In this document: positions 1,237 through 60,472 of the stretch, in pieces | Layout: each line of letters opens with the position of its first letter | Position numbering within the stretch: position 1 is the stretch's first letter | Assembly (NCBI GenBank): GCA_029213195.1 | Contig: JARGNI010000002.1 | Span: forward strand, 186,001-250,000 | Length of the DNA stretch: 64,000 nt | Reading direction: 5' to 3' | Origin: Verrucomicrobiales bacterium | GTDB lineage: Bacteria > Verrucomicrobiota > Verrucomicrobiia > Verrucomicrobiales > DEV007 | Position numbers and translations under genes: made by a program | Notes under the pieces: generated by a model | Seen by the model: only the letters and a program-made list of their open reading frames with translations | What the model was told of the DNA's origin: nothing | Databases searched by the model: none

Positions 1237-1647
1237 CTAGGGGAAAGTCCGGGTGTAGGTGCGATACGTGCCGTTGGAATACTGGTCGCGGTAGGTCACG
1301 ACGGTCATGTGAACTGGGTAAGGCCGACCGCAAGAGGTGTAAGCCGTGACACAGTGCTGTCTGCGACTGATTTCACAGGTACGAACCACATAGGGGGTCG
1401 CGCAATGCCCTCCCGTCACAAAGCCGCTGTGGCCACCCTGATAGGAGTGAGACTGATGTGATCCGTGATGGGGGCGATGCACGCTGTGCCCCTGGAAGGG
1501 CGAAAAGGGAACGCGAGGAGGAACGATATGGTTCCCGAAAGGTGAGTGCCCGAATCCGATGGAGAAGCGTGGGCCAGCCTGTGCTTCGGGTGCCAATCCG
1601 ATGAAGGCCAGGGCGCCGAGGGCGAGAGTCAGAACAGCAGTTTTCAT
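1237..1647 (-). CDS. Small His/Tyr-rich secreted protein, function unknown
   Basis: 136 residues from the ATG at 1645-1647; an upstream ATG at 1701 would put 18 unlikely residues before the signal peptide. MKTAVLTLALGALAFIGLAPEAQA is a clear signal peptide. The mature part is low-complexity and rich in His, Gly, Ser and Tyr (for example HSVHRPHHGSHQSHSYQGGH), followed by a segment with paired cysteines (GGHCATPYVVRTCEISRRQHC) and a Tyr/Thr-rich end. This composition suggests an exported protein of the periplasm or cell surface, perhaps metal-binding or disulfide-stabilised, but I recognise no family. Two palindromes lie directly upstream (1695-1714 and 1730-1747) and a strong terminator follows, so it looks like a separately controlled single gene. 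Confidence 0.75.
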   Translation of the reverse strand: MKTAVLTLALGALAFIGLAPEAQAGPRFSIGFGHSPFGNHIVPPRVPFSPFQGHSVHRPHHGSHQSHSYQGGHSGFVTGGHCATPYVVRTCEISRRQHCVTAYTSCGRPYPVHMTVVTYRDQYSNGTYRTYTRTFP

Positions 1648-1694: not shown

Positions 1695-1714
1695 GACGCA
1701 CGAATAAGTGCGTC
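1695..1714. promoter_or_regulatory. Perfect inverted repeat upstream of the His-rich protein gene
   Basis: GACGCAC and GTGCGTC are separated by 6 nt, with further pairing outside. It lies 48 bp upstream of the ATG. It could be an operator or a hairpin in the 5' leader. Confidence 0.5.
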
Positions 1715-1729
1715 TATGCAGAAGATTTA

Positions 1730-28308: not shown

Positions 28309-30117
28309 TCAATAAGTCAGGGTAACCGCAAAGTGGAACTTTCCTGACGTCGGGTCGTCGAAGACACCATTTTCTCCCAGGGCCCAGCCGTAAGCCGCTC
28401 GGGCATACCCACGATCTGCAATCGTGCAGTTCAGCCCGATTCCTACGCTTCGCAGGGATTGGCTGATCTCTGCCGGGAGAGCTTCGCTGATGTCCATAGC
28501 AGCGATATCATAGAAGACCAGCGCATTCCAAGTGCCTTTGAACTCACCAAGGAGAGGCTGTTTTGAAGGTGTGCAAGTGGCATCCTGGAAAAGCGGAGCA
28601 AAAGAAAGCGGCGGCGAGATCAATTCAACGTTCCCGATGATCCCGGAGTCTCCTCGGATGATGCTCTCATCATAACCGCGAACCGTGTTGTAGCCTCCAG
28701 CAAGGAGTTGTTCCGTCGCGTTCAGTCGATTTTTCGAGGCCCGTCCTCTAAGGCGAAGACGTAGCGTGAAATCAGCAGGCAAGCGCTGAAGTCTTTCCAG
28801 TTCACCGTATCCGTAGAAGTAGCTCGCTTCCGAGTCCAACCTCGCCAAGCCAAAGGCAATATCATCATTGTTGTCGAAGATACCTCCAGGGGACCCAACG
28901 ATGCCAAAACTCCCCTGGGTAACCCCTGTCTGGTCCGGAACGGAAAACTCGTAGACCCCGCGAAATTGTCCCACTACCACATCACTATTGAAGATATTGG
29001 CGCCACCAAAAATCAGGTCCGTGTTCGTCGACTTGTAGTCGAAAGCGAAGGTGAAATCGTGTTTCCAAGCCGAAATTCGTTTTGGTCGTGGCAACGGAAC
29101 CTTGTAAGCCAGGATGAGTTGTCGACTCAGACCTGTCGTGTTTGCAACCGTCTTATCGAGGGCTTCACTCGTGACATGGGCACCCGAAAGCTGGAAGATA
29201 TGCCGCCAAGGGAGGTAGGCCTCATAAAAGAGAGAATGAGCCTTCAGGGTACTCCGGTTCTCGTCCGTCGTATAGTTGTAACCGAGTGTATGCTCCCTCC
29301 TCCCAGGATTGCTGAGAGTCACTCCAAAGGACCACTCCTGCTCCCCGGTAAAGTCGACTCCAGTGTTGCCAAAACTGGCATACGCATGAATAGGCTGACG
29401 CTCAACGACCTCGAGGACAACGTCTGTCGTCCCATCCTCCTCTCCCTTCTCGTAAACCAGGTTGACCTGGCGGACCGGATTCTCATTCATCCATTCGAGA
29501 TCAGCCGCGACGGTCTTCTTGTTGATCCGATCATCCGGGTCCAGACGCAAACACTTCAGGAGATACTCTTCGCGAGTCAACTTGGCTCCTTGAGTAGACT
29601 TCTTACCCAGCACGGCTTCCCTCACTACCACCTGGAGACGACCTCCGGTAATATTCTGCTCGGGATAATAGACATCGACCAAGGGATAATCACTCTCTCT
29701 CCAGGCTACCACAATGCTCTTTCCAATCTCGGAAAGCAGCGCCATCGAGACAGGTCGTCCGACAAACTCAGCCAAGGTTTCCTCGAGACCACCAGGAGCC
29801 GGGAGATCAGGATCGATCATTACCGATTCCTTCCCGGGTGACGCCGACATGGTCGCCTTATCCTGGTTCGAGATCAGTTCAATAGAGGCCAGGTTTACGC
29901 CCAAAGGAGTCGCATCAGCCGTTGCCTCCTCCTCATCAGTTCGTCGATCTTCGCTGGTTCCATCCCCTTCCTGTCTATCGGATTCGGTCTGGAGAACCTT
30001 TCGCTGCAACTCGGCGGCTCGCTCCAACGGACGGTTCTGTGCCGAGGAAGAGATCACGCACAGCCCACTCAGCACGAGGACAAATGCAATTCTCAGCAAA
30101 TGGAACTGAATGGTCAT
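28309..30117 (-). CDS. TpsB-type outer-membrane transporter (FhaC/ShlB family)
   Basis: 602 residues, signal peptide MTIQFHLLRIAFVLVLSGLCVISSSA. It exports the TpsA partner encoded just upstream through the outer membrane. Residues ~85-250 contain POTRA domains (MIDPDLPAPGG, then ENPVRQVNLVYEKGEEDGTTDVVLEV). The C-terminal ~350 residues are a beta-barrel with the FhaC family tetrad motif in LLAGGYNTVRGYDES and a terminal FHFAVTLTY strand. It starts 26 nt after the tpsA stop, so the three genes FecR-TpsA-TpsB form one minus-strand unit, ending at the terminator at 28271. Confidence 0.9.
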   Translation of the reverse strand: MTIQFHLLRIAFVLVLSGLCVISSSAQNRPLERAAELQRKVLQTESDRQEGDGTSEDRRTDEEEATADATPLGVNLASIELISNQDKATMSASPGKESVMIDPDLPAPGGLEETLAEFVGRPVSMALLSEIGKSIVVAWRESDYPLVDVYYPEQNITGGRLQVVVREAVLGKKSTQGAKLTREEYLLKCLRLDPDDRINKKTVAADLEWMNENPVRQVNLVYEKGEEDGTTDVVLEVVERQPIHAYASFGNTGVDFTGEQEWSFGVTLSNPGRREHTLGYNYTTDENRSTLKAHSLFYEAYLPWRHIFQLSGAHVTSEALDKTVANTTGLSRQLILAYKVPLPRPKRISAWKHDFTFAFDYKSTNTDLIFGGANIFNSDVVVGQFRGVYEFSVPDQTGVTQGSFGIVGSPGGIFDNNDDIAFGLARLDSEASYFYGYGELERLQRLPADFTLRLRLRGRASKNRLNATEQLLAGGYNTVRGYDESIIRGDSGIIGNVELISPPLSFAPLFQDATCTPSKQPLLGEFKGTWNALVFYDIAAMDISEALPAEISQSLRSVGIGLNCTIADRGYARAAYGWALGENGVFDDPTSGKFHFAVTLTY

Positions 30118-30143: not shown

Positions 30144-33100
30144 TCATTGATCCAGTGCCGCCGTCAACTCATTCAGCGCTTCCTGATTCAGGTTTGCCTC
30201 CAGCAACGCCAAGGTGGCGGGGCCGACCTCAATGGGAATCGTCAGGATCGAAACGGCTCCATCGATTGACGTTACCGGGATGACCAGGGTCATTTCGAGG
30301 GCCGCCACCAATTCCCTGGCTGAATCCGTGAGAAGGTTCTCTTCGAGAATCGCTTTCAATTCCTCTGGTGGAACCCCATCCAGCAAAATGGAAAAAGGTC
30401 CATCGTTTCTCACTAAGATCGTGGAATCGGAAAATCCGATGGCCTCAGCTAGTTCCGACCAAGCATTTACCTCCAGGTTTTCCTTCAACTGGCCAATAAT
30501 GCTCTGCGGAGGTTCCGTAAAGAATCCATCGAGGCTAGCAGGGGCTTGGAGCTGAAACCTCGTCCCATCGATCTGAACAACAACGGCCTGCCCTGTAATC
30601 AAAGCATTGGCTGCAAATGCAGAAAATGCATTCGCGGCAGCATCGGTAAGACCTGTTCCTGAAAACAGATCGCTCACCGTTCCGTCACCCAGTGGGTTCT
30701 GATTTCCACCACCTTCATTGTTGATGTTGTCTGGGTTGTTCGACTCGTCTTTAACGAAGACAAACTCCTCAACATTGGAAGAGAACAGCTGACTCTCTCC
30801 AAAAAGAAAAGGAGTTCTCCCGACAACAGGTGTGGTCCCAAAATCAACCGTGTCCAATCCCCCCCCGCCGTCTACAAACTGGATCAACCCGTTGTTGCCT
30901 GCCAGGACATTGTCGTTGCCGGAACCCAGCAGAAGCTGAAGAGACTCTATCTCCGAAAACTCATAGTCTGGGTTCCGAGAGACGGAGCCATCCGAGATCG
31001 TGTAGCTCTGACCGGTGGTCAGATTCGAGTCGTTCAAGACAAAGGTATCGGCCTCGGAGCCACCATCGAAACGAACCACATTTGCTTGGTTCTGAAAGAC
31101 AAAGAGATCACTCCCCCCAACACCATTCAAGATCTCGAAGTCGGCGAAAGAGAGCAAGTTCACGAAACCACGATTCTCCTCAGTCACGAGAAACTGATCG
31201 GCGGAAGGCGTGCCCGTAAGTGTGTCTTCACCGGCGCCTCCTACCAGCGATTCGATACTCGAAAATGCCCCCACTTGAGTCGCTGAATTGTCCTGCAAAT
31301 CGACAACCACGGGTTCGGAAAATTTGCCCCAATCGAGAGTGTCGACTCCGCCTTCGCCGTTGATCGTTGCCACATCCCCTCCAGGGCTGATGGAGAAGAA
31401 ATCATTGTCGCCTCCCCCCAGAAGCTCACCATCAAAAGTTTCGGTGTCGGGAAGCGTCACCTCGAACATGTCTTCTCCCAACCCTCCGGAGACGAGCGAA
31501 AAGTTCTCAAAGGCAACCGTTCGTGTGTCAGGAGGACCTTCCACTTCGTATCCGTCTTCCTCATTGAAGAACAAGGTCGAAGCTGTCGTTTCCACAGTCC
31601 CCGTCTCGTCGCCGAAAGCCGACTGCGATTCCACGGCACTCTCGATCTCACCGACTCCATTCGCCGTGATCCTGATCGTATCTCCCCCGCCCGTACCCTC
31701 GATTCTGTTGGTGTATCCGCTGGCGCCGACGATCCTTTCAATACCGGAAAAACTGGTCGTCCCTGTGCCAAACTGGGCTACTCCAGAGTCCAGATTGACG
31801 TCCAGAGCAGAGCCGATCAAACCAAAATCGAGAAGATCAACATCCCCATCGTTGAAGTCTGACTCGAAAACCGAAGCACTTCCCGAGAGAACGGTGAAGG
31901 TGTCACTCCCCAAATCGCCATCCAGTGATCCTCCAAATACGTTTGCACTCCCTAGATCAATCGTGAACGAATCGTCCAGAATACCTCCCCTGACCTGTGA
32001 GAAATCGGTCACATCGATCACTCCCCTCGTGTCGTCTTCGTAGGTAAAACCCGTCGAACTGTCGATATCGAATCTTCCGGGATCGGTATTGCTCCCACGG
32101 AAGGTGGGAAACAGGTCGGGCCTGCCCGACAGAAAATCGATATTCAACAACTGAGAAGCTTCGATTTCCAACCAGCTCCCCGTGTATCCTCCAAAATCAA
32201 GCGAGTTGATTCCACCACCGCCGTCGGCAGAAAAGCCGAAGAGTGGAATCGACCCATTGACTCGAAACGCAGTGCCCGAGGCAGTATCCCCTTTCAAAAC
32301 CAACCCGTTTCCGCTGATCGTAGAATTCAACTCGACATCTCCCCCCATCGAGCCCACTTCCACACCCCCTCCTGAGCTGGAAATCGTTCCGTCCAGGAGC
32401 ACGGCTTGATCAATCCCGTTGGGTGCTGCCCCAGTAATCTTGATATCGGCGGCGGCCATCGAGTCAGCGTTACTGCGCAACCAGACACCAACATTCGGAG
32501 TTCCGCCTGCACTGAAATCCCCCGCTCGACCATCCAGGACAATCTCTCCGAGAGCTGAATTCATGCGACCTCTCGAATCGATTCCGGAAAAGTCTCCCGC
32601 CACCGGAACACTCCCCTGATTCGCCTTGATGGTGAGGTGATTGGTTGAATCGATGACTCCCTGATCGTCCAAAATAAAGTATTCAGAAGTCGCAATGTCG
32701 ATCGCCCCTGAAGAATAGACTTCGGTATTCAAGATCAGTCTTCCCGCCTTCCAGTCAATATCACCGATCAAGGAAGAACTGTCGGAGCCCACTGTATCCT
32801 GAAAGAAAAGCTGACCGTCGCTACCCGCATTCACTGAGAAATTACGCGCTTGGGTTTCGCCACTAACCGGCCCTTCAATGATAACATTGGCTCCACCGAG
32901 CTGGCCTCCTGCCGTGGTATCGATCGAGGAATCGCCTTGCAACACCACATCATCGCTAATCGTAATTCCGTAACCTTCCGTTGAAATCGTTCCACTCAGA
33001 TAGGTCGTTGAGACCTCTCTCTGGAAGCTGGGACCGGAGCCATCAAAGAAAAAGCTCGCATCTCCAATACCGGTCAAATCCCCTACAACAAAGATCTCTC

Positions 33101-35129
33101 CACCAGGAAAGGCGGAACTTGGAGTGGCGAACGTAGTCGGATCGCGGAACTGAACCGACCCGATCGTAATCGTCCCATTCCCAACGACAGCATCGCCAAT
33201 GACTATCGAGTTGAATCCATCACTCAATAAGCCCAATTCTCCGTTTGTGAGATGCAGCCCATTTGTCGGAACTTCCGGCCCGCTGCCAAGATTGATGGCC
33301 AGATCGGAAGTGATCGGGGCAATCGTCAGATCCCCCTGAGATTGAATGATTCCTGCGACCTCGATCGAGTCAGTGATCAATTGAATATCACCAGTTGTCA
33401 GCCCTCCCCCAATCGAACCCCCGGAAAGCAAATCCAGCGAAGCCCCACGAAGGACAACGGCCCCGGTTCCTGAAGAAATCTCTCCTCCCAAGGAGAGATT
33501 TCTCGCGGCAGAAAAATCAATACTCCCTCCCCCGCTGGCTGAGACCTTTGCACCCGGTCGCACGACTATGTCGCGATCTGCATCCAGCGAAAACAGCGCA
33601 TCCGAGTTCCACGAAACATCAACACCAGCTTCGATTGTAATGTCTCCATCACCTTCCCCGATGACCGTCTCAAGAAAGAGATTCTGATCCGCTGCGAGAA
33701 AATTGACGATGTCCTGATCGTGAATTTCGTTGCTGTTGATCGTGGATGTTTCCCCTGCGACTCCATCAATGATCAAAATATCCGTCGGATCGATAAGGAG
33801 GGTCCCCCCTTTTCCAGAAACAGCTCTCACATTGATCTGCTCGGTCAGATTCCCGACAAGGACGGATTCTTTACCTGATACCTCTACGAACCCACCGTCG
33901 CCCCCATGGCGCCCCCCTCTGGCTACGGCCATTCCGGAGAATGTCAGGCTGCCCGAAGAGAATGAAATGATCTCCCCACCATCTCCTTTCTCGATGGCGC
34001 TAGCTTGCAACGAAACACCTCGACCAATCTCAACTGTGTCCGCGTTGAAAAAATCAGGATCCAACCCTCTGCGTCCTCCCCCCAAAAGAATCTGTCCACC
34101 ACCACTTTCGCCATCAGCAATCAATAGACTACCACTGAAGACTTCAATTCCTTTGCCCAGGATGAGGATACCCCCCCCGTTGCCGGAATCTCCTGACACA
34201 TCCACTTTGCCGGAGATCTCAGTTCGGCCAGCCGGTCCACTGTCGGCCACCACATTCCCTCCGCTCTCTTCTTTCTTCGCAACCACGGTTCCCGTCGATC
34301 GCACGCCTCCTCCTCCACCGGCTCGAAGGAAAATCTGCCCGCCTTCACGAGAGACGGAGGTCGCAGCGACTCGCCCTTCGTTCTTCACGGCCATACCATA
34401 GATATTGCCTCCGTGTGCCTTGAGCTCGGCCACATTTGCTTCGATCGTGCCGCGGTTCACGGCTCCCCCATCTGAACTCCCAGAGCCTCTCACAAAAATC
34501 CGTTCCGATCCAGATTCTGCCAACAGGACATCATTTCCACTCGCCAATCCAACCGACCCACGGGGAGCAGTAATGGATCCTTCGTTGATCACAGAGGACG
34601 CAATCAGGAATACATCCCCTTCCACCGCGTGAATCCTTCCCAAATTGACGATTCCAGCCTGAGAATTTCCCCGGAAATCAAGGTCTCCCCCGGCCAGAAA
34701 AGCATCGTTGGAGAGATCGAGCGTCGAGGCAGTGAAACCTGCCGTGTCGATGACGCCGCCTTGGCCTACCAATATTCCAGCCGGATTGAGAAGAAAGACA
34801 CGCCCATTTGAGATCAGGCTTCCATTGATGATTGAAGTCGCACCACCGGTCACACGGTTCAAAGTGACCGACGAAGTTCCTGGCTGAATGAACTGAGTCG
34901 TCTGTCCTGCGGCAATAGAAAATGAGTTCCAGTCGATGATCCCGTGGTTCGTGCCTTGGATTACCTGCAGGGTGTTTCCGTTGTTGGCGAACTGGATGTC
35001 GCCATGAACCACCACACCCCCGCTGGGATTAGTGTATCCAGACCCGCTGAAACACAGAGAAATCGACGCACAAAAGGCAACAACGCGTTTCCTGGGAGAG
35101 CTCCCATTGGCCGATTTCCGCTTTTTCAT
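30144..35129 (-). CDS. Giant TpsA exoprotein (filamentous hemagglutinin-like) with RTX-like repeats
   Basis: 1661 residues, the largest gene in the window. After a basic export signal (KKRKSANGSSPRKR then VVAFCASISLCFSGSG) comes the TPS secretion domain (~40-280): DIQFANNGNTLQVIQGTNHG, FIQPGTSSVTLNRV and the conserved NPAGILVGQGG. A long beta-helix region rich in Gly, Ser, Asp and Asn follows. Residues ~1080-1490 contain RTX-like nonapeptides such as GGLGEDMFEV, GGAGEDTLTGT and GSGNDNVLAGN, suggesting calcium-stabilised beta-rolls. The C-terminal ~150 residues are repetitive (EELKAILEENLLTDSARELV). It is probably a surface adhesin or structural exoprotein exported by the adjacent TpsB. Confidence 0.88.
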   Translation of the reverse strand: MKKRKSANGSSPRKRVVAFCASISLCFSGSGYTNPSGGVVVHGDIQFANNGNTLQVIQGTNHGIIDWNSFSIAAGQTTQFIQPGTSSVTLNRVTGGATSIINGSLISNGRVFLLNPAGILVGQGGVIDTAGFTASTLDLSNDAFLAGGDLDFRGNSQAGIVNLGRIHAVEGDVFLIASSVINEGSITAPRGSVGLASGNDVLLAESGSERIFVRGSGSSDGGAVNRGTIEANVAELKAHGGNIYGMAVKNEGRVAATSVSREGGQIFLRAGGGGGVRSTGTVVAKKEESGGNVVADSGPAGRTEISGKVDVSGDSGNGGGILILGKGIEVFSGSLLIADGESGGGQILLGGGRRGLDPDFFNADTVEIGRGVSLQASAIEKGDGGEIISFSSGSLTFSGMAVARGGRHGGDGGFVEVSGKESVLVGNLTEQINVRAVSGKGGTLLIDPTDILIIDGVAGETSTINSNEIHDQDIVNFLAADQNLFLETVIGEGDGDITIEAGVDVSWNSDALFSLDADRDIVVRPGAKVSASGGGSIDFSAARNLSLGGEISSGTGAVVLRGASLDLLSGGSIGGGLTTGDIQLITDSIEVAGIIQSQGDLTIAPITSDLAINLGSGPEVPTNGLHLTNGELGLLSDGFNSIVIGDAVVGNGTITIGSVQFRDPTTFATPSSAFPGGEIFVVGDLTGIGDASFFFDGSGPSFQREVSTTYLSGTISTEGYGITISDDVVLQGDSSIDTTAGGQLGGANVIIEGPVSGETQARNFSVNAGSDGQLFFQDTVGSDSSSLIGDIDWKAGRLILNTEVYSSGAIDIATSEYFILDDQGVIDSTNHLTIKANQGSVPVAGDFSGIDSRGRMNSALGEIVLDGRAGDFSAGGTPNVGVWLRSNADSMAAADIKITGAAPNGIDQAVLLDGTISSSGGGVEVGSMGGDVELNSTISGNGLVLKGDTASGTAFRVNGSIPLFGFSADGGGGINSLDFGGYTGSWLEIEASQLLNIDFLSGRPDLFPTFRGSNTDPGRFDIDSSTGFTYEDDTRGVIDVTDFSQVRGGILDDSFTIDLGSANVFGGSLDGDLGSDTFTVLSGSASVFESDFNDGDVDLLDFGLIGSALDVNLDSGVAQFGTGTTSFSGIERIVGASGYTNRIEGTGGGDTIRITANGVGEIESAVESQSAFGDETGTVETTASTLFFNEEDGYEVEGPPDTRTVAFENFSLVSGGLGEDMFEVTLPDTETFDGELLGGGDNDFFSISPGGDVATINGEGGVDTLDWGKFSEPVVVDLQDNSATQVGAFSSIESLVGGAGEDTLTGTPSADQFLVTEENRGFVNLLSFADFEILNGVGGSDLFVFQNQANVVRFDGGSEADTFVLNDSNLTTGQSYTISDGSVSRNPDYEFSEIESLQLLLGSGNDNVLAGNNGLIQFVDGGGGLDTVDFGTTPVVGRTPFLFGESQLFSSNVEEFVFVKDESNNPDNINNEGGGNQNPLGDGTVSDLFSGTGLTDAAANAFSAFAANALITGQAVVVQIDGTRFQLQAPASLDGFFTEPPQSIIGQLKENLEVNAWSELAEAIGFSDSTILVRNDGPFSILLDGVPPEELKAILEENLLTDSARELVAALEMTLVIPVTSIDGAVSILTIPIEVGPATLALLEANLNQEALNELTAALDQ

Positions 35130-35152: not shown

Positions 35153-35689
35153 TCAGTTCTCTTCCTCATTAGGAATGATTTCGACCCGGCCTTCCTTCAC
35201 CTGTGCGTAGCCCTTGCCATCCTTCACCGCAACCGAGTAGAAAGTTCCTCGGGCAGCCGCAACTCCGCTTGGCGTTCTGACTTTAAAATCAAGCTCTCCT
35301 GCGGCATTTGGCTTCAGGAGCGCCCCCAGGCTCCCCTGCTTCAGGTCGATCAGAACATCTTTCGGGCTGGCTTCCTCGTCGACCGTCTCGATCACAACTT
35401 CGGAATTCGCCGATATGCGAATCGCTGACCGCGGGGTGATCACCACCACAGCACGGGAATCATCACCTGTCTTGATTGTCGTGCCAACCGCAACCTTGTC
35501 ACCTTTCTCGACCGGCGTCGGATCCGCTCCTTCCTCTCCTACAGCACTGACCTCTCCGACCGCCACCGTCACTGTCCCGCTCTCGGGAGCCGCCTGCAGG
35601 CTAGTGAGAAAAAATAAGGTGAGAAAAGAAATTCCCCCCAGTTTCACGAAAGCGATGGTGCTCATAATATGGCTGTGGTCTGATTTCAT
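35153..35689 (-). CDS. FecR-domain periplasmic protein
   Basis: 178 residues, with a signal segment IAFVKLGGISFLTLFFLTSLQA; the start is either 35689 or the ATG at 35665. The FecR domain is clear: VEKGDKVAVGTTIKTGDDSRAVVVITPRSAIRISANSEVVI, then GSLGALLKPNAAGELDFKVRTPSGVAAARGTFYSV. In iron-uptake systems FecR senses a periplasmic signal and controls a sigma factor. Here it is followed at 23 nt by tpsA and is divergent from a CHASE2 cyclase, a combination seen repeatedly in cyanobacteria, Chlorobi and Verrucomicrobia. No FecI-type sigma factor lies next to it. Confidence 0.87.
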   Translation of the reverse strand: MKSDHSHIMSTIAFVKLGGISFLTLFFLTSLQAAPESGTVTVAVGEVSAVGEEGADPTPVEKGDKVAVGTTIKTGDDSRAVVVITPRSAIRISANSEVVIETVDEEASPKDVLIDLKQGSLGALLKPNAAGELDFKVRTPSGVAAARGTFYSVAVKDGKGYAQVKEGRVEIIPNEEEN

Positions 35690-35737: not shown

Positions 35738-35759
35738 TTCCGACGAATAAGGTTCGGAA
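35738..35759. promoter_or_regulatory. Dyad in the FecR / cyclase divergent region
   Basis: TTCCGA and TCGGAA are separated by 10 bp, midway between the divergent FecR and CHASE2-cyclase starts. It could serve both transcripts. No clear -10/-35 pair could be assigned. Confidence 0.4.
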
Positions 35760-35806
35760 ATTATGTAGTTTTCTCGAAATTTTTGCTTAGTCTTTTCGCG
35801 ATCTCG

Positions 35807-38065: not shown

Positions 38066-38842
38066 TCAATCGAGTGGCTGGGCGACAACTTGAAGGAGCG
38101 GTTTCACCACTGCGGGAGAAATCTCGGGAAAGGCGCTCAGAATTTTTGCGACCTTTCCGGAAACCAGGGGAGCGGCAAAACTACTCCCGGTTTCGACACG
38201 TGTCTGATGATCTGTCCAGGGAACCTCCACCCGCTCGCCCTTGGCAAAGAAAGAGACCATATTGCCTTCCCGACCGAACAGCTCATCCGGCTCACAATCA
38301 ATCCCCCCCACACTGATCACACTCGGAAAGAAAGAGGGCCACTCTCGGACCGTCGAATCGACGTTCGAGCACGCAGCTACCACCTGGACTCCAGCGAGGT
38401 AAGCCGCGTCGACCCACTCCTTATAGTCCATGACATACCGCGGCAATCCACGGCAACCAAAGCTGCAATTGATCACCTGGTATCCACGTGAAATGGCCTG
38501 GGTCACACACTCGGCGATCACGAAACTGCGGGCATGATTGGCACTGTCGAGGGCTCGAAAACTGCCGAGTTGAATTCCGGTTGCTTCCCGCACCAAGAGA
38601 CTTGCCACCGCTGTTCCATGCCCATACACATCCGCCCCCTGATTGTTCTCGATCTTGAGGCTCATCCCGTCACAGGAAACGGCAATGTCGTCCGTCAAGG
38701 TAACGCCGGAAAGCCCGGGATGACTTGTGTCCACCCCGGAGTCGATGACAGCGACCTTGATTCCGTCACCAGTTGCCTCGGCGAGCGCTTCTCGCACGCT
38801 GGGCAAGCTCGGCCACTTCGGATTCCCACTCTCAACCGGCAT
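38066..38842 (-). CDS. Cytoplasmic subtilisin-like serine protease (S8)
   Basis: 258 residues with the full S8 triad: Asp in VAVIDSGVDTSHPG, His in VYGHGTAVASLL and Ser in TGSSFAAPLVSG. The oxyanion Asn is likely the one in VVAACSNVDS. There is no signal peptide, no pro-domain and no C-terminal extension, so it looks like a minimal intracellular protease needing no secretion or maturation. It overlaps the GAF gene by 11 nt. The arrangement with a GAF protein and a small helical protein suggests a sensor-controlled protease. Its substrate is unknown. Confidence 0.88.
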   Translation of the reverse strand: MPVESGNPKWPSLPSVREALAEATGDGIKVAVIDSGVDTSHPGLSGVTLTDDIAVSCDGMSLKIENNQGADVYGHGTAVASLLVREATGIQLGSFRALDSANHARSFVIAECVTQAISRGYQVINCSFGCRGLPRYVMDYKEWVDAAYLAGVQVVAACSNVDSTVREWPSFFPSVISVGGIDCEPDELFGREGNMVSFFAKGERVEVPWTDHQTRVETGSSFAAPLVSGKVAKILSAFPEISPAVVKPLLQVVAQPLD

Positions 38843-39428
38843 CGTTCAATCCCAGGACAGCCGTGAGGAGTGCTTCATTGACGAGTCTTTCGACCACGCA
38901 GGTGACTCGAGCCAATTCCGCAACATCGTCGGAACTGAATCCCTGCTTCTGGTTGGTTTCCTGTTCTTCCAATTGGACACAGGAAACCACACCACGCAGC
39001 CCGAATCCAAAATAGAACGGGACCGCAATCATCGCCGAGGTGTGCTTAGCGATCTTTCGGTCCAATGTATCATCGTGTCCCGCGCTCGCCTGGATCGAAT
39101 TCTCGCAATACGGCTGCTGTTGTGCGTAGACCATGGAAATGATCCCGGAACCGATGAGCTGTTCAAAGCCAACGAGGGAGTCGGCATTGTCCCCGGAATT
39201 GTAGATCGCGACGAGATTTTCCTTCTGGTCACGAAACCAGACCGTGCCTTCGCAGCCGCCCACCCGCGCAAAGACCCGCTTGAACAAAGTCAGGCAGGCA
39301 TCGTCGAGAAGCCCGGCGAGATCCGCTGGAGCACAGGAATCGATCCACTTCTCAAGGTGAGTCGTCACCTCTCCCCCGGCAGAGCACAGGGATGGATCTC
39401 TAAGAAACCGGGTTCGGGTGCTCACCAT
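38832..39428 (-). CDS. GAF-domain-like protein
   Basis: 198 residues from the ATG at 39426-39428, 4 nt after the stop of the small protein gene. The region ~70-190 has the GAF pattern: GCEGTVWFRDQKENLVAIYNSG, SLVGFEQLIGSGIISMVYAQ, then DRKIAKHTSAMIAVPFYFGF and GVVSCVQLEE. GAF domains bind small ligands such as cyclic nucleotides, tetrapyrroles or NO-sensing iron. There is no attached output domain, so the output may be the subtilase whose start overlaps this gene. The cyclase at 35807 is a possible ligand source, though that link is speculative. Confidence 0.72.
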   Translation of the reverse strand: MVSTRTRFLRDPSLCSAGGEVTTHLEKWIDSCAPADLAGLLDDACLTLFKRVFARVGGCEGTVWFRDQKENLVAIYNSGDNADSLVGFEQLIGSGIISMVYAQQQPYCENSIQASAGHDDTLDRKIAKHTSAMIAVPFYFGFGLRGVVSCVQLEEQETNQKQGFSSDDVAELARVTCVVERLVNEALLTAVLGLNDAG

Positions 39429-39432
39429 AGGG

Positions 39433-39651
39433 TCAGGAATTCTGAAGCCGACTCACGAGTTCGTGAAGCGCCTTCTCATTTTCCAGGATCTTCGGGAGCA
39501 GGGACTCCCGAGCTTCCTCGCTGAGATTTCCCTCAGCGAAAGAGTGAATCTGCTCGATCTGCTCCTGGGTCAGAGGCTCGGAGGATCGACCGGAAACCTC
39601 GGGACCGAGGTTTTCAAGAAACTGGGCGAGAATGGAAATATCGTTGTTCAT
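39433..39651 (-). CDS. Small helical acidic protein, anti-sigma-domain-like
   Basis: 72 residues, first of three co-transcribed genes. It is helical and acidic, and the pattern LTQEQIEQIHSFAEGNLSEE followed by ARESLLPKILENEKALHELV resembles the zinc-binding anti-sigma (ASD/zf-HC2-like) module, in which a short loop of conserved Cys follows the Ser-Glu-Glu helix. Here the cysteines are replaced by ENEKA, so it would be a degenerate, non-zinc version. It may be a protein-interaction partner of the GAF protein or the protease. I do not recognise it as a named family. Confidence 0.6.
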   Translation of the reverse strand: MNNDISILAQFLENLGPEVSGRSSEPLTQEQIEQIHSFAEGNLSEEARESLLPKILENEKALHELVSRLQNS

Positions 39652-39710
39652 GGAGTTGGGTAATTAAGTTGCTTTCATGGAGACGAAGCAAACAGCCCTC
39701 CTATGCAGCA

Positions 39711-39829: not shown

Positions 39830-39915
39830 ACAAACAACGTCTAACGACGTTTGTTTTGTGTTGAGGGGTTATAAAGGCGGTGCCTGATTTGTTTCAGGTG
39901 CCGCCTTTTCTTTTT
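39830..39915 (+). ncRNA. Predicted ~86-nt small RNA
   Basis: It begins at the start site of the 39796 promoter. A 5' hairpin (AAACAACGTC with GACGTTTGTTT) is followed by a single-stranded TGAGGGGTTATAAAGG-like linker. The end is a strong intrinsic terminator (AAAGGCGG...CCGCCTTT, 15-bp stem with two wobble pairs, 39873-39908) and a T-run (TTTTCTTTTT). It has no credible open reading frame apart from a 9- or 10-codon possibility. It is divergent from the small protein-GAF-subtilase operon, with the two promoters 18 bp apart. Confidence 0.68.
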
Positions 39916-59764: not shown

Positions 59765-60472
59765 TCACAAATCGAGTCCGGCCGCACAGAGCTTCTGAAA
59801 ATCCTCCCACTCCAATTTGAGATCCGAATCGGCCTCCTCGATGGTTCGCATCGTCACCACAGCAATCTGCTCTCTCGCTGCGCTGAGGGAGCGACTGACA
59901 CGAGTCTGGTCGCAACGCCACATGCGTGCGATGACGGTTTGGCTGATCCCATGAAGATAGGAAAGTTTCAGCATCAGCAAAACATCAGGGTCGAGAGAAT
60001 CGAAGGCGGCCTTGATTGCCCGGCCCATAAGCTCCGACAGGTCATCATCGAGAAGTTTCTCTCCTGGATCGTCCCCCTTGACTCGATCAAATCGGTCGCC
60101 TGCTCGATCATCTTCCTCCTCATAGGACGGGAGCTCCCCTTTGAATTTGTCACGACGTTTCAAATCGAGCCATCGATTCCAGGTGATTCGGATCATCCAG
60201 GTCGAAAGCGAGGACCGGCCCTCGAACTTCTCCAGGAGTGGTCTCGTTTGCCCTTTTTTCCCCGCTCCGAAACACTCGGCGATCACATCCGCAACGAGAT
60301 CCTGAGCCTGCACCCGGTCGACTCCCCGAGACATCATGACCCGTTCCAACATGGGCTGATACTCGGTCTGGAATGCGAGGACCGCATCCTCGTCACCATT
60401 GACGGCCCGATCCACGAGATCGAGATCTTCCGCGTGCTTGAGAGGTTTTACTTCCGTGGAGGGATCACTCAT
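59765..60472 (-). CDS. ECF-type RNA polymerase sigma factor
   Basis: 235 residues. Sigma region 2 is in DRAVNGDEDAVLAFQTEYQP, ARDLVADVIAECFGAG-like sequence and RSSLSTWMIRITWNRWLDLK. Region 4 is in IKAAFDSLDPDVLLMLKLSY, then LHGISQTVIARMWRCDQTRV, a helix-turn-helix. An acidic linker (EEEDDRAGDRFDRVKGDDPG) joins them, longer than in most ECF factors. No anti-sigma gene is adjacent; the ABC ATPase lies just upstream on the same strand. The regulon is unknown. Confidence 0.88.
   Translation of the reverse strand: MSDPSTEVKPLKHAEDLDLVDRAVNGDEDAVLAFQTEYQPMLERVMMSRGVDRVQAQDLVADVIAECFGAGKKGQTRPLLEKFEGRSSLSTWMIRITWNRWLDLKRRDKFKGELPSYEEEDDRAGDRFDRVKGDDPGEKLLDDDLSELMGRAIKAAFDSLDPDVLLMLKLSYLHGISQTVIARMWRCDQTRVSRSLSAAREQIAVVTMRTIEEADSDLKLEWEDFQKLCAAGLDL

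Follow-up and report, generated by a model that had tools for sequence, protein, structure and literature searches.

A conserved operon for an anti-sigma-like protein, a GAF-like protein and a cytosolic subtilase, with predicted links to an ECF sigma factor in Verrucomicrobiales

The window analysed here, a 64,000-nucleotide stretch of DNA from a Verrucomicrobiales bacterium, contains a row of three minus-strand genes that encode a small soluble protein, a GAF-domain protein and a subtilase of family S8 (Table 1). A gap of 4 nt separates the small gene from the GAF gene, which in turn overlaps the S8 gene by 11 nt. This spacing, from which the original prediction had deduced translational coupling, is confirmed by the positions of the open reading frames and recurs in relatives: of the 30 loci aligned, the window's among them, 28 have a GAF-S8 overlap of 8-14 nt, and between the small and GAF genes the gap ranges from -4 to 45 nt.

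Table 1. Features of the window discussed in the text, with the evidence for each
Feature	Position	Strand	Basis
Small protein, 72 aa, soluble, zinc-less, anti-sigma-like	39433..39651	minus	29 orthologs in genus loci; predicted structure
GAF-domain protein, 198 aa	38832..39428	minus	sub-threshold GAF_2 match in homologs; Cys-Glu-Asn motif
S8 subtilase, 258 aa, without signal peptide or prodomain	38066..38842	minus	PF00082 93.7 bits; D34/H75/N160/S221
Operon promoter (ECF-type, predicted), TGCATAG-N15-CGTC	39682..39707	minus	30 nt before small gene
Second exact promoter copy	1695..1720	minus	motif search
R1, secreted protein, 136 aa, candidate regulon member	1237..1647	minus	homologs behind promoter in 8 other genomes
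Promoter-like TACATAA-N15-CGTC, 1 mismatch, before FecR-domain gene	35742..35767	minus	motif search
FecR-domain protein, candidate regulon member	35153..35689	minus	PF04773 54 bits
TpsA-like exoprotein	30144..35129	minus	PF05860 TPS domain 92 bits; 23-nt gap to FecR
TpsB-like transporter (ShlB/FhaC)	28309..30117	minus	PF03865 60 bits; 26-nt gap to TpsA
ECF sigma factor, 235 aa, probable cognate sigma	59765..60472	minus	TIGR02937; orthologs upstream of triplet elsewhere

The protease is a member of the S8 family, matching Peptidase_S8 (PF00082) at 93.7 bits against a gathering score of 21.8. Alignment of 24 orthologs shows no variation at its catalytic Asp34, His75 and Ser221 or at the oxyanion Asn160, and these residues are retained in 38-39 of 39 divergent homologs. 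Conservation among the 24 orthologs does not extend to the first 9 residues, and the hydropathy profile contains no hydrophobic leader. The highest Kyte-Doolittle mean over 19-residue windows is 1.18 for the S8 protein, 1.59 for the GAF protein and 0.31 for the small protein; by this measure neither a signal peptide nor a transmembrane helix is apparent in any of them. The protease had been described as a "naked" cytoplasmic enzyme with a full Asp/His/Ser set, and the invariant residues and the lack of an apparent leader or membrane segment support this. The second protein, which had been called a GAF protein devoid of an output domain, is borne out as GAF-like and sub-threshold: Pfam finds no GAF domain in the protein of the window, and its homologs score below the cut-offs (23.4 bits vs 28.6 for GAF_2, PF13185; 18.6 vs 22.4 for GAF, PF01590). 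A Cys-Glu-Asn motif (C108, E109 and N110) is nearly invariant, its three residues being present in 36, 36 and 38 of the 41 divergent homologs compared. A cyclic-nucleotide GAF was considered and rejected, the only matches to phosphodiesterase (PDE) and cyclase GAF domains being weak (E 0.001-0.09); better-scoring rows in that comparison were repeat proteins and were taken as an artefact.

A search with the GAF protein covered 57 genomes, 34 of them from the genus including the window's own (that is, 33 genus relatives). A close GAF ortholog (52-65% identity) is present in 29 other genus genomes, and all 29 carry the small, GAF and S8 genes in the same order and with tight spacing, maintained at about 50-74% identity. 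The triplet of a 30th relative (G015) is diverged (L083/L168). Lack of joint conservation in related genomes had been named beforehand as the sign of a chance neighbourhood; the conserved order across genus relatives therefore refutes such an origin. An SMC gene is a frequent neighbour upstream of the triplet and was rejected as a functional partner, since the triplet persists where SMC is absent (G019, G024 and G030). The CHASE2 cyclase of the window, which had been put forward as a possible source of a GAF ligand, is not a conserved partner: it is not beside the triplet in any of the 24 relatives' neighbourhoods examined. Likewise, FecR, TpsA and TpsB genes were not found adjoining the triplet in relatives' neighbourhoods. 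Anti-phage defence was also discarded as a role, because the protease gave only generic subtilase/IetS matches and the GAF and small proteins gave none.

A fourth gene, c1 (~300 codons), lies on the same strand 3' of the S8 gene in 18 of 22 neighbourhoods. It is displaced in the window genome (G000:C34:37054-37959), and lies apart from the triplet also in G004 and G024; for some triplet carriers, for example G020 and G031, no copy was detected. The predicted c1 structure has a PqqD/RRE-like domain at its N terminus, a single membrane-spanning helix and, at the C terminus, a conserved helical hairpin. Residues 11-99 of the model match TbiB1, lasso B1 and PqqD (Foldseek probability 0.84-1.0; VIA Z 6.5-7.5), and as modelled this part of c1 has the PqqD/RRE fold, a three-stranded sheet with winged helices; the likeness is one of fold, with no Pfam hit. 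In addition, c1 weakly resembles the N terminus of a PqqD-M50-HlyD protein encoded elsewhere in the window genome (G000:C100). At that locus (L103, 8043-12205) a GAF-HlyD fusion adjoins the PqqD-M50-HlyD protein, which matches the daptide intramembrane metalloprotease model at 155 bits (cut-off 300), and the two look like a peptide maturation or export pair.

The GAF and S8 genes also travel as a pair. In a profile search, 37 of the 40 loci that hold a GAF homolog have S8 as the next gene behind GAF; the exceptions are L109 (at a contig edge), L075 (a weak match) and L072, in genome G039, where no S8 stands behind GAF. Such pairs reach beyond Verrucomicrobiota, to a Gemmatimonadaceae metagenome-assembled genome (MAG; L169) and an Acidobacteria MAG (L170). 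The downstream partner of the pair differs by lineage and is often a membrane or exported protein. In ~20 loci, referred to here as cluster B, the pair occurs with an L,D-transpeptidase and with neither the small gene nor a detected sigma gene. The cluster-B transpeptidase has a conserved N-terminal region of ~190 residues (motif FLGPVNxLPAEG) before an internal signal-like segment, and the window genome holds a paralogous operon of this type, GAF-S8 followed by the L,D-transpeptidase (L036, 9546-12285; G000:C109). Elsewhere the partner is an ABC transporter (L163/L164), and a TPR-CHAT protein is found at L164 and L169. Since GAF-S8 pairs occur without the small gene or a detected sigma gene, the original substrate of the pair need not be an anti-sigma. 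The Gemmatimonadaceae locus (L169, 3570-10291), with a CHASE2 cyclase, GAF, S8 and TPR-CHAT in one row, is the only case besides the window in which a CHASE2 cyclase lies near GAF-S8. At a contig end in genome G312 (L109, 661-2061), a sigma-like N-terminal region is fused in one frame to a GAF domain of the type found in this operon.

The window also encodes, 20 kb from the operon, a protein that matches TIGR02937 at 66.2 bits (cut-off 42.9) and Sigma70_r2 at 31.5 (cut-off 24), with a region 4 match below its cut-off and TIGR03001 as the next-ranked family. By the usual marks of the class (a family score over the threshold, and regions 2 and 4 but neither 1 nor 3) it counts as an ECF sigma factor. 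Orthologs are present in 29 of the 33 genus relatives (64-83% identity). Within the genus the sigma gene lies 9-23 kb from the triplet, on the same contig and strand in many genomes, and is not adjacent to it. Outside the genus, three related MAGs (L141, L143 and L144) have a sigma ortholog as the gene immediately before small-GAF-S8. In G039, from another family, the order is sigma-small-GAF with no S8 directly behind; in G045, sigma-small is convergent to GAF-S8; in G174, sigma-small is present with no GAF-S8 directly behind. In all six the small gene thus stands next to an ECF sigma gene, as is looked for in an anti-sigma. The adjacency outside the genus suggests an ancestral arrangement that has since been lost, as happened to c1 in the window genome. 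Very probably the operon belongs to the circuit of this sigma factor.

The small protein has no family match in Pfam or NCBIfam. Its AF2 model consists of five helices (pLDDT 81.6). When this model was compared by Foldseek with 350,542 PDB chains, the best two matches were the anti-sigma domains of DdvA and of SigK-bound RskA, both weak (E 2.0 and 3.7). Alignment with VIA gave weak matches as well, RskA aligning with residues 28-72 at Z 3.0 (1.8 A, 44 aligned) and DdvA at Z 2.8 (27% identity, 45 aligned). Zinc-less and soluble anti-sigma domains are known (PMC7406223). The original prediction of a zinc-less anti-sigma-like protein therefore agrees with the top structural matches and with the position of the gene behind an ECF sigma gene in several genomes. 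Taken together, the weak structural matches and the sigma linkage make it likely that the small protein is an anti-sigma, predicted to bind sigma. A RiPP precursor was dropped as an identity for this protein, which is conserved over its full length, has no variable core and has an anti-sigma-like structure. TAL-effector rows among its matches were taken as an artefact.

Aligned DNA upstream of the small gene yielded the motif TGCATAA-N15-CGTC, which precedes this gene with at most one mismatch in 29 of 34 loci (22 exact, 7 with one mismatch; 0.12% in shuffles). Its 15-nt spacing and CGTC element are as expected of ECF promoters, and the linkage described above suggests that the sigma factor of the window would read it. 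Two exact TGCATAR-N15-CGTC sites are present in the window, compared with 0.06 expected, one before the operon and one before R1. The one-mismatch copy before the FecR-domain gene makes FecR, TpsA and TpsB, which to judge by their arrangement probably share one transcript, candidate targets; a FecR homolog in G005 is preceded by the exact motif. The window's own genome has five exact sites, of which one precedes another secreted protein, R2, and two look like chance. A count over the genus gives 80 exact motifs and 52 copies of a reversed control, so many of the single sites are chance. The families that recur behind the exact motif are R1 in 9 genomes (8 besides the window's), glycine-rich lipoproteins in 5, a 53-residue basic peptide in 4, R2 in one other and FecR in one, all of them candidates drawn from motif pattern searches. 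The basic peptide (L278, L283, L289 and L291, with the exact motif upstream) has the pattern MNxxSLxDRIRxVRxGARAxQPLxYRIxLVR. The motif search did not find the same promoter before the sigma gene or before the c1 gene or cluster-B operon of the window genome. The sigma gene has a different conserved upstream element, and some cluster-B operons have a related one, TGAATCR-N14-CGTC (recognised by eye and by a scan at two mismatches). An inverted repeat, AACAACGTC-TAAC-GACGTTTGTT, lies ~130 nt upstream of the operon promoter (39830-39859). The operon carries an ECF-type promoter that is common to genes for secreted or envelope proteins.

The reading preferred here, to which we assign a probability of roughly one half, is that small-GAF-S8 controls an ECF sigma pathway in which a GAF-gated S8 protease removes the small anti-sigma. 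In the resting state the small protein would hold the sigma factor inactive. The GAF protein would sense a cytoplasmic signal, perhaps through its Cys-Glu-Asn motif, and would bind the subtilase and gate it. Active subtilase would then remove the small protein and free sigma, which would transcribe the regulon together with the small-GAF-S8 operon, so that the inhibitor is remade. The c1 protein, with its membrane location, PqqD/RRE peptide-binding fold and extracytoplasmic helical hairpin, may report the state of the envelope. Among the parts of this scheme, regulation of S8 by GAF is somewhat favoured, while the anti-sigma as main substrate of S8 is a tentative assignment, at a little under even odds. 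The earlier idea that the protease acts on a regulator counts as supported; that the anti-sigma is what is cleaved, we infer. Several observations count against the preferred reading: the weakness of the small protein's structural matches, the GAF-S8 pairs that lack the small gene and a detected sigma, the G039 locus, in which sigma, small and GAF occur without S8 directly behind, the non-adjacent sigma of the genus, and the role proposed in the literature for the subtilases beside ECF54, degradation of sigma itself. More speculative is a bolder version, in which regulated intramembrane proteolysis would have a cytoplasmic counterpart that works in one step: the cytosolic subtilase, gated by GAF, would degrade the soluble zinc-less anti-sigma directly and so turn on the envelope regulon. 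GAF-S8 would then be a portable protease cassette, reused across Verrucomicrobiota, Gemmatimonadota and Acidobacteriota with other targets (transpeptidase, ABC exporter, CHAT).

The main rival reading, possible if doubtful, takes GAF-S8 as a maturation protease of the cytosol. Its substrate would be the exported or membrane protein of a neighbouring gene (c1, the L,D-transpeptidase or the ABC exporter), cut in the N-terminal part that lies in the cytoplasm, and the sigma link would only set expression. The frequency of such proteins downstream of the pair, among them c1, the transpeptidase with its ~190 residues before the signal-like segment and the transporter at L163/L164, speaks for it, as do the GAF-S8 pairs that lack the small protein. 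There is also a precedent in QhpE, a subtilisin-like protease that cuts the QhpC leader in the cytoplasm before export (PMC7876137). Like the protease described here, QhpE is a cytoplasmic subtilase, and its target is encoded in its own operon; moreover, the QhpE model (NF049966) is the second NCBIfam match of S8. However, the score of 83.5 bits falls far below the cut-off of 165, which does not make the protease a QhpE, and neither QhpC nor the radical-SAM QhpD was seen beside S8. Maturation also leaves the small protein and its sigma linkage unexplained, and c1 is displaced in the window genome and undetected in some triplet carriers, G020 and G031 among them.

Alternatively, the subtilase might degrade sigma itself, as an off switch or as negative feedback. 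A subtilase in an ECF sigma context has been noted before: the neighbours of ECF54 include a carboxypeptidase, a subtilase and CHAT, degradation of sigma by these neighbours has been proposed in a review, and the group is described as lacking an anti-sigma (PMC8999054). Compared by genomic context only, the present loci are like ECF54 in the subtilase near an ECF sigma gene and in TPR-CHAT at L164 and L169. Moreover, an operon under an ECF-type promoter, with a sigma gene that has no copy of it but a different conserved element, would suit negative feedback. In contrast to ECF54, however, an anti-sigma-like small protein and a GAF protein are conserved here, and no known cleavage signal was identified on sigma; degradation of sigma is thus unlikely. 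The notion that the genes adjoin by accident, or are co-transcribed with no shared function, which could appeal to the GAF-S8 paralog pairs without the small protein, is scarcely credible given the order and spacing kept in 29 of 29 genus loci, including those from which SMC is missing.

The circuit preferred here, in which the subtilase removes the anti-sigma, resembles pairs of ECF sigma and class I anti-sigma factors: the sigma passes TIGR02937, a small helical protein stands beside sigma genes in several genomes and resembles the RskA and DdvA anti-sigma domains, and the operon has an ECF-type promoter. Unlike those pairs, the small protein has only 72 residues and no transmembrane helix, and its operon partners are a GAF protein and a cytosolic subtilase, whereas systems of the RseA or RsiW type use site-1 and site-2 membrane proteases. 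As a cytoplasmic S8 protease without a signal peptide, the enzyme is also like the intracellular subtilisins (ISPs) of Bacillus. An N-terminal extension keeps ISPs inactive. In the present enzyme the leading segment, of 9 residues, is short and not conserved, and the GAF partner is the more likely seat of control. A literature search of open papers found no description of a conserved set in which a soluble anti-sigma-like protein lacking zinc occurs together with a GAF protein and a naked subtilase, along with the promoter and targets of such a set.

ECF sigma factors rank among the main routes by which bacteria signal stress, and the best-known proteolytic switches are seated in the membrane. 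A conserved cytosolic switch that pairs a sensor protein with a naked subtilase would, if true, be a different design, and the promoter and its candidate targets offer a simple reporter readout. More widely, it may point to a role for GAF-subtilase gene pairs, otherwise unexplained, in three phyla.
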